Positions 59,429 through 64,000 of a stretch of DNA of 64,000 bases are shown one piece after another. The position numbers were made by a program, and so were the translations under genes. The stretch's first letter is position 1. Each line of letters begins with the position of its first letter. Below the pieces are notes generated by a model, which did no database searches, was not told the origin of the DNA, and worked only from the letters and a program-made list of their open reading frames with translations. Origin of the DNA: Actinotalea sp. JY-7876 (GTDB lineage: Bacteria > Actinomycetota > Actinomycetes > Actinomycetales > Cellulomonadaceae). The stretch lies in assembly GCF_014042015.1 (NCBI RefSeq), contig NZ_CP059493.1, positions 1,426,001 to 1,490,000 on the forward strand. Direction: 5' to 3'.

Positions 59429-60313
59429 ATGACCAGTAGCCAAGCGTCCCCCTCGGGTGTCCCCGCAGCTCCCGTCCACCACCTGACGCGCCCCGAGGGC
59501 CGGGTCACCTACACCGACACCGGTCAGGGCCCGCTCGTCGTGGCGGTCCCCGGGATCGGCGACCTGCGCGCCACCTACGACGACGTCGCCCCGCGGCTCG
59601 TCGCCGCCGGCTACCGCGTCGTGGTGTCCGACGTGCGCGGCCACGGCGACAGCGACACGACCTTCACCGAACACGGCGACGAGGCGACGGCCTCGGACCT
59701 CGCCGCGCTGGTCGAGCACCTCGGGGCCGGACCCGCCGTGCTGCTCGGGAGCTCGATGGGCGCGTCCGCCGCCGTCGTCGTCGCGGCCGACCGCCCCGAG
59801 CTCGTCCGCGGCCTCGTGCTGCTCGACGGCTTCCTGCGCGAGCCCGCGTCACCGGCGCGGCAGCGCCTCATGCGGCTCGGGTACCGCGTGCTGCTGGCGC
59901 GCCCGTGGGGCGCGGCGGCGTGGAGCGCGATCTACGGCACCCTGACGAGGAAGCGCCCGATCCCGCGCCTGGCCGAGCACCGGGCGGCGCTGCGCGCGAG
60001 CCTGCGCGACCCGGCGCGGCTGCGGTCGTTCCGGGACCTCTGCCTCCAGCTGGACCACCGCGTCGTGGAGCCGCGCGTCGCCCGGGTCCGGGCGCCGGCG
60101 CTCGCGGTCTTCGGCGCGCTCGACCCCGACTACGCCGACCCGGCGGCCGAGGCGGCGTGGGCCGGCGAGGCGCTCGGCGCCACGGTGCTCCTCCTGCCCG
60201 GCGTGGGCCACTACCCCCAGCTCGAGGCGCCCGACGAGGTCGTAGCCGCGGTGCTCGACCACCTGGCGGCGCTCCCGCCCGTGGTCGGAGCGGCGGGCGG
60301 CGCGCGTGGCTAG
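59429..60313 (+). CDS. alpha/beta hydrolase
   Basis: 294 residues. The nucleophile elbow is LLGSSMGASA (Ser at about residue 109), the acid is probably Asp in FGALDPDYADP, and the His is in PGVGHYPQLEAP. The oxyanion region is VPGIGDLRATYDD. The cap region (about 135-200) is short and basic. Family members are esterases, lipases, haloperoxidases or epoxide hydrolases; substrate unknown. It overlaps the TetR gene by 8 bp and may be controlled by it. Confidence 0.9.
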   Translation: MTSSQASPSGVPAAPVHHLTRPEGRVTYTDTGQGPLVVAVPGIGDLRATYDDVAPRLVAAGYRVVVSDVRGHGDSDTTFTEHGDEATASDLAALVEHLGAGPAVLLGSSMGASAAVVVAADRPELVRGLVLLDGFLREPASPARQRLMRLGYRVLLARPWGAAAWSAIYGTLTRKRPIPRLAEHRAALRASLRDPARLRSFRDLCLQLDHRVVEPRVARVRAPALAVFGALDPDYADPAAEAAWAGEALGATVLLLPGVGHYPQLEAPDEVVAAVLDHLAALPPVVGAAGGARG

Positions 60314-60896
60314 GGCCGGGCTCTCGACCGAGGCCGTCGTGCGGATCGCGCTCGAGCTCGTCGACGGCGGTGGTCCCGAGGGCTTCGCCGAGCTGTCGCT
60401 CGCGAAGGTGGCGGCGCAGGCCGGGGTCGCGACGCCGAGCCTCTACAAGCACGTCGGCTCGCTCGGCGCCCTGCGGCGCGAGGTCTGCGTCGTCGCGGTC
60501 GAGGACCTCGCGCAGGCGGTGGCCGCCGCGACGGTGGGTCGCGCGGGTCCCGACGCCGTCGTCGCGCTGGCCCACGCCATGCGCCACTACGCGCTCACCC
60601 GGCCCGGCCGCTGGGCCGCGGTGCAGGCGGCGCCCGACCCGCAGGAGCCGGCCGACGCCGCGCTGCGGGCGGCGGCGGAGCGCCTCGTCGCCACCATCGC
60701 GGCCGTGCTGCGCGGCTACGGGCTCCCCGAGGAGCGCACCGTCGACGCGATCCGCTCGGTGCGTGCGAGCATCCACGGCTTCGTCACGCTGGAGCTCGCC
60801 GGCGGCTTCCGGCTGCCCGACGACCTCGACGCGAGCTTCGCGACGCACGTGCGGATGATGCTCGCGGGCCTGGACGCCATCGCCGGCGAGGGATGA
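60306..60896 (+). CDS. TetR-family transcriptional regulator
   Basis: 196 residues. The N-terminal helix-turn-helix is LAKVAAQAGVATPSLYKHVGSLGALRREV (about residues 25-55; shown as LAKVAAQAGV and PSLYKHV cores). A TetR_C-like ligand domain follows (WAAVQAAPDPQEPADAALRA). The unusual start GTG-GCT-AGG overlaps the hydrolase end by 8 bp, so it is coupled to that gene. It probably regulates the hydrolase or the nearby exporters. No palindromic operator was clear at the hydrolase promoter. Confidence 0.88.
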   Translation: MARAGLSTEAVVRIALELVDGGGPEGFAELSLAKVAAQAGVATPSLYKHVGSLGALRREVCVVAVEDLAQAVAAATVGRAGPDAVVALAHAMRHYALTRPGRWAAVQAAPDPQEPADAALRAAAERLVATIAAVLRGYGLPEERTVDAIRSVRASIHGFVTLELAGGFRLPDDLDASFATHVRMMLAGLDAIAGEG

Positions 60897-63164: not shown

Positions 63165-63725
63165 TCAGGCCTGGAACGTCGGCGTGATCGTGCCGCGCGC
63201 GAGCGTGTGGAACAGCGCCGTGAAGGCGACCTTGGTGGGGGTCGCGTCGTCGTCGAGCTCGAGGGAGTCGACGTCGAGCGCGTGCACCGCGAACACGTAG
63301 CGGTGGGGGCGGTCGCCGGCCGGCGGAGCGGCGCCCGTGTAGCCGACGCCGCCGCCGTCGTTCCGCGCCTGCCGGGCGCCCGCGGGCAGCGCGGCGCCGT
63401 CGGGCGCACCGGCGCCGGTGGGGAGGCTGGACGTGCTCGCGGGCAAGTCCCACACGGTCCAGTGCCAGAAGCCGGCGGGCGTGGGGGCGTCCGGGTCGAA
63501 GCACGAGACGACGAAGCTGCGCGTCCCGTCCGGCGCGCCCTGCCAGGCCAGGTGCGGGGACGTGCTCCCGCCGGCGGCGGTGAAGCGCTCGGGCAGCGGT
63601 GCGCCGTCGACGACGTCGTCGCTGGTCACGGCGAGGTCCGGGGCCTCGGGGAGCAGCGAGTACGGGTCCGGTGCGGTCGGTCGGGCGAGGTCCACGGTTC
63701 CTCCAGGGGTCGGCACCTCCATCAT
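63165..63725 (-). CDS. YbhB/YbcL-type phosphatidylethanolamine-binding-like protein
   Basis: 186 residues, PEBP fold. The signature is [20 protein letters not shown] and, further on, [20 protein letters not shown], which form the ligand pocket. Bacterial members are often annotated as kinase inhibitors by analogy with mammalian RKIP, without evidence. No signal peptide. The start is ATG 63725 or 63722. It is convergent with the previous gene, with 9 nt between stops. Confidence 0.9.
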
Positions 63726-63850
63726 CGCGATCACGGCGCGCGGCGCACGGCGAGCGCGGCGGTGCGGCCGTCCCGGGTGAGCGTCGCCGCCCCGTCCGGG
63801 CGCACCCGCACGGGCTCGGTGGCGACGCGCCGGGGCGACGCGCGGGCCGA

Positions 63851-63903
63851 TTGACACCTCCGGGGTGGCGGCGTGTACTGATAGTTCGAACGTGCGTTCG
63901 AAC
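63851..63903 (+). promoter_or_regulatory. promoter with LexA-like SOS box
   Basis: TTGACA (63851-63856) is a perfect -35; TGTACT (63874-63879, 17 nt spacing) or TACTGA (63876-63881) may be the -10. TCGAACGTGCGTTCGA at 63886-63901 fits TCGAAC-N4-GTTCGA, the Gram-positive LexA site, and overlaps the expected start of transcription. The wider GTTCGAAC-N4-GTTCGAAC symmetry also fits a TetR-type operator. Confidence 0.7.
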
Positions 63904-63928
63904 GTCGTGCAGCGAGGAGGAGGTGCCC

Positions 63929-64000
63929 ATGACCGCGGTCGTCGAGCGATCTGGCCCTCCCGTGGCGCCCGCGGAGGGGGTCGGGCTCTCGCGCGCCGCC
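63929..64000 (+). CDS. 5' end of a gene cut by the window edge, unidentified
   Basis: Only 24 codons are visible ([12 protein letters not shown]...). GAGGAGGAGG is a strong ribosome site just before ATG 63929, and a LexA-like promoter lies upstream, so the gene is real. The residues are a variable N-terminus and do not identify the product. If the box binds LexA, the gene is DNA-damage inducible. Confidence 0.6.

Follow-up and report, generated by a model that had tools for sequence, protein, structure and literature searches.

Among the closest described counterparts of the locus reported here is the mycobacterial ImuA'-ImuB-DnaE2 mutasome, whose ImuB is a clamp-binding hub (PMC10421592) and is described as catalytically dead (PMC6511836). 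In Mycobacterium tuberculosis, imuA', imuB and dnaE2 are induced by mitomycin in a RecA-dependent manner, and dnaE2 is still induced when both RecA and PafBC are lowered (PMC8151990). The mycobacterial cassette is split, with imuA'-imuB lying apart from dnaE2 (PMC6511836, PMC10421592), and is under the control of both LexA and PafBC (PMC10421592); the published PafBC motif is TGTC(GG/AG/AC)-N10-TA-N3-T (PMC8151990). A three-gene imuA-imuB-dnaE2 cassette has been described for many bacteria (PMC6511836). In proteobacteria, where dnaE2 is also named imuC, it is LexA-regulated and its ImuB belongs to the ImuB1 subgroup, while the actinobacterial proteins form ImuB2 (PMC6511836). In Streptomyces, dnaE2 (dnaE2-dinP) is a strongly induced target of the LexA regulon, and the LexA motif obtained by ChIP-seq in S. 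venezuelae is tCGAAC-N4-GNNCGa; the main text of that report does not contain the word imuA (PMC9380542).

A locus of this type crosses the end of the window analysed here, a 64,000-nt stretch (C1:1426001-1490000) of the 3,546,809-base single-contig genome of Actinotalea sp. JY-7876. With the mycobacterial mutasome it shares the three protein families, an ImuB without the catalytic acidic pair and, as a prediction, LexA/RecA control; with the proteobacterial cassettes it shares the three-gene form and predicted LexA regulation, and with the Streptomyces regulon the 16-bp LexA motif. The proteobacterial LexA box differs from the one here. The contiguous layout, in which the three genes overlap, and the lack of an exact PafBC motif upstream are what differs from the mycobacterial model. 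From the evidence given below we estimate a probability of about 0.96 that positions 63885–63902 of the window are a LexA operator placed just downstream of the −10 element of the promoter of an imuA'-imuB-dnaE2 operon for SOS-controlled mutagenesis.

Results

Identity of the truncated gene

A preliminary description of the window, made from its sequence, had reported a LexA-like box in front of a gene of unknown kind that leaves the window after 24 codons. Reading past the window end identified this gene as imuA', the first of the three that make up the actinobacterial ImuA'-ImuB-DnaE2 mutasome, a cassette known for LexA-regulated error-prone repair. The imuA' gene (295 aa; L019 3930–4817, plus strand) matches NF058630 with 183.9 bits (cut-off 65), the Rv3395c-based NCBIfam model 'DnaE2-dependent mutagenesis accessory factor ImuA''; its match to the RecA family PF00154 is weak (16.5 bits) and below the cut-off of 27. 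It is followed by imuB (554 aa; L019 4814–6478), matching PF00817 with 50.3 bits (cut-off 23.2), and by dnaE2 (1127 aa; L019 6471–9854), an error-prone DNA polymerase gene matching NF004225 with 1454.9 bits (cut-off 939), both outside the window. The imuA' stop overlaps the ATG of imuB, the shared stretch being 4 nt, and imuB and dnaE2 overlap by 8 nt.

In an alignment to both DinB proteins encoded by this genome, ImuB has 'PG' where each DinB has 'DE', the catalytic acidic pair of Y-family polymerases; the first Asp is kept. The loss of this pair in a Y-family protein fits ImuB. The seven NCBIfam models listed for the protein are all DNA polymerase IV or related models, each scoring below its cut-off, as does the match to PF11799. 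ImuB also has a long C-terminal extension. As to a clamp-binding motif, its segment QVALVPWG, judged by eye only, resembles QLPLWG of M. tuberculosis.

Beyond the cassette, a Wadjet-type system with jetA, jetB and jetC starts some 3 kb downstream of dnaE2 (L066 3121–6300; C1:1498820-1501999), with PADLOC scores of 695 (JetA), 365 (JetB) and 598 bits (JetC) on the part read.

Promoter and box

The region upstream of imuA' contains a −35-like TTGACA (63851–63856, plus strand) and, after a 17-nt spacer, a predicted −10-like TGTACT (63874–63879, plus strand). The predicted LexA box TTCGAACGTGCGTTCGAA (63885–63902) lies directly downstream, starting 5 nt past the −10-like element, and forms the perfect palindromic frame TTCGAAC-GTGC-GTTCGAA. 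It is followed by a ribosome-binding site, AGGAGGAGG (63915–63923, plus strand), which contains AGGAGG at 63915, and by the ATG at 63929; the first 24 codons (63929–64000, plus strand) are within the window and the gene runs on outside it. The anatomy given in the preliminary description was thus confirmed: a TCGAAC-GTGC-GTTCGA core exact within 63885–63902, 29 nt between TTGACA and the TCGAAC that starts at 63886, a gene start 28 nt after the core ends at 63901, and the number of codons before the window end. The box is also an exact match to the S. venezuelae motif. The neighboring gene on the minus strand (63165–63731) encodes a PEBP-type (phosphatidylethanolamine-binding) protein (PF01161, 136 bits, cut-off 24). 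It is divergent and outside the operon; its start, picked by eye, is assumed to lie some 150 nt away from the box.

Within the window, 11 sites are at most two mismatches from TCGAAC-N4-GTTCGA, and only 63886–63901 is exact, where 0.05 exact CGAACN4GTTCG sites are expected from base composition. In 100 shuffles of the window the number of sites with up to two mismatches averaged 2.22 (maximum 6). The remaining ten sites all have two mismatches, and the excess over the shuffles is therefore uninformative on LexA. Taken alone, a single box is moderate evidence.

Conservation in relatives

Of the 59 genomes searched, 45, the present one included, have an ImuA' that passes the curated cut-off, and 14 are without one. 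Upstream DNA was read for 30 of these 45 loci, the best-scoring 30 at one locus per genome. The exact core CGAACN4GTTCG is upstream of imuA' and in the right direction in 29 of the 30, again with the own locus included, and the thirtieth (L035) has a one-mismatch box, TCGAATGAATGTTCGA. TTGAC is kept in 27 of the 29 box-bearing stretches, starting 31–43 nt before the box core. Being at a promoter and conserved in relatives, the box is beyond what chance would give.

Among the 45 genomes having both genes, imuA' and dnaE2 are on the same strand and less than 6 kb apart in 39, and on different contigs in five, which are assemblies of 360–840 contigs; in G048 they share a contig at a distance of about 12 kb. 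In one further genome (G008) dnaE2 is present and imuA' is not over the cut-off.

LexA and its predicted sites in the genome

The genome encodes LexA (245.5 bits, cut-off 110.95; domains PF01726 and PF00717). Absence of the box from recA or lexA had been named as a point against the LexA reading; both genes carry one, each a single letter off TCGAAC-N4-GTTCGA. That of recA, TCGAACACCTGTTCGC (L021, at 2524), has the exact 14-bp core, and that of lexA, CGAACAGATGTTTG, about 135 nt upstream of the ORF, fits the looser CGAACN4GTTNG. Together with the exact consensus match and the conservation upstream of imuA' in relatives, these boxes support the identification as a LexA site.

Nine of the 12 exact core sites in the genome were assigned to genes, with gene starts at the boxes other than that of imuA' chosen mechanically. 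Besides imuA' (L019) and recA, these are a SAV_6107-like HEPN gene followed by dinB (L022), a second dinB divergent from helR (L023 3602–3615), a 97-aa frame about 17 nt downstream of its box (L023 9386–9710) for which no Pfam or NCBIfam match was found at E 0.001, an Rv2578c-family radical SAM gene (L025) and three DUF222 genes (L026 2545, L027 2548 and L029 2549; C1:2495044, 2939147 and 3115848). The other three sites are in a region of low third-position GC (L020), 158 nt upstream of the likely start of a P-type ATPase (L024), and inside a DeoR-family ORF (L028), the last probably by chance.

Several of these loci show further features. The three DUF222 proteins begin alike, and the exact box is 18–20 nt upstream of the start MAVLAAVEP. 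The RecA-dependent mitomycin-induced genes of M. tuberculosis include five putative HNH endonucleases (PMC8151990), and SOS control of the DUF222 group may therefore be general. In L022 2523–4336 the HEPN gene (PF18726) is placed between the exact LexA box and dinB and so may be SOS-induced along with dinB. In the gap between helR (NF041254, RNA polymerase recycling motor) and the second dinB, a 28-bp perfect palindrome (L023 3543–3570) is followed 31 nt on by the exact LexA box, and the control region may be common to the RNA polymerase rescue gene and the translesion polymerase gene. The gap (L030 2394–2513, approximately C1:1342135-1342254) that separates lexA from a divergent LysM gene (PF01476) holds more than the lexA box: close in front of the LysM gene, at 2446, 2461 and 2476, are three imperfect LexA-like boxes with an exact spacing of 15 nt and with 1, 2 and 2 mismatches. 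In its position the LysM gene resembles the SOS cell-division inhibitor that adjoins lexA in other Gram-positives. Upstream of recA (L021, about 2605) there is an exact PafBC motif, TGTCGG-N10-TA-N3-T, besides the LexA box, which suggests that recA could be under double control as in mycobacteria.

Other explanations of the palindrome and of damage control

In a GC-rich genome a palindrome of this kind could arise by chance, and 2.6 exact core sites are expected genome-wide from base composition, or 4.5 when the dinucleotide frequencies of the window are used. Against this, the 12 sites observed compare with none for the reversed pattern, the site is in promoter position before a known SOS operon, and the box recurs at 29 of the 30 imuA' loci read; a chance origin is rejected by this conservation, and its probability is negligible. 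The preliminary description had also allowed for a TetR-type operator, in view of the extended GTTCGAAC symmetry at the site. The window does contain a TetR-family gene (60306–60896; PF13305, 95.7 bits, cut-off 26.8), but it is about 3 kb upstream of the box with four predicted ORFs between. Furthermore, imuA' itself neither encodes nor adjoins a TetR regulator, inspection by eye of 6.3 kb of downstream sequence revealed no TetR-like ORF, and the same type of box is found at recA, lexA and two dinB loci of the genome as well as upstream of imuA' in relatives. With the one identified TetR gene this far off behind other ORFs, a TetR operator is not supported, and we rejected it as highly improbable.

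A different question is whether the operon, as in the double control of mycobacteria, is damage-inducible mainly through PafBC and independently of RecA, with LexA in a secondary role. The mycobacterial split cassette provides the precedent (PMC10421592). In the present genome two WYL-domain genes, among five WYL matches, share a strand at a distance of about 1 kb, and this pair together with the exact motif at recA makes it likely that the PafBC pathway is present, although the two genes are putative pafB and pafC only. The exact motif also occurs in two of the 29 imuA' upstream stretches. Between 63601 and 63929 of the window, however, TGTC(GG/AG/AC)-N10-TA-N3-T has no match, and the TTGACA/TGTACT pair is found there instead. 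With the motif absent upstream, PafBC as the main input of this operon is not supported and we regard it as unlikely, and prefer LexA control.

Discussion

The mechanism proposed for the imuA'-imuB-dnaE2 operon is as follows. In an undamaged cell a LexA dimer on the box would block transcription; given that the box starts 5 nt past the −10-like element, the probable transcription start would lie under the bound repressor. Upon DNA damage, RecA filaments would stimulate self-cleavage of LexA and the operon would be turned on. ImuB and ImuA' would then bring DnaE2 to the sliding clamp for error-prone synthesis across lesions. For repression by LexA and its release by RecA-stimulated cleavage we rely on the anatomy of box and promoter and on the literature. 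Co-transcription, LexA binding, induction by damage and the roles of the proteins are supposed by analogy with the published work on mycobacteria and Streptomyces. Weighing against this reading are the exact core sites expected by chance, the three sites that were assigned to no SOS gene, the one-letter departures of the recA and lexA boxes, the sub-threshold polymerase IV matches of ImuB and the continued induction of dnaE2 in M. tuberculosis when RecA and PafBC are both lowered.

The upstream stretches of the relatives allow a more tentative suggestion. The two that contain the exact PafBC motif are the same two that lack TTGAC (n = 29). TGTC(A/G)G alone is present in 12 of the 29, more stretches than have the complete motif. 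Possibly, then, the imuA' operon has alternated among relatives between two arrangements of damage inputs, LexA only with TTGACA and LexA plus PafBC without it, though we consider this rather doubtful. On the same tentative reading, LexA alone would control a TTGACA-type promoter in most members read, that of the window included, despite the PafBC motif found at recA in this genome. A promoter switch of this kind rests on two cases and is a lead only. If true, one and the same mutagenesis operon would take a single damage input in certain species and two in the rest.

The established picture of the mutasome is confirmed and not changed by these results. They show that a known mutation-making operon is present in this actinobacterium with its genes contiguous and probably LexA-controlled, and they yield a predicted SOS regulon of small size. 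Contiguous operons of this type might be easier to work with than the mycobacterial cassette and its split layout.
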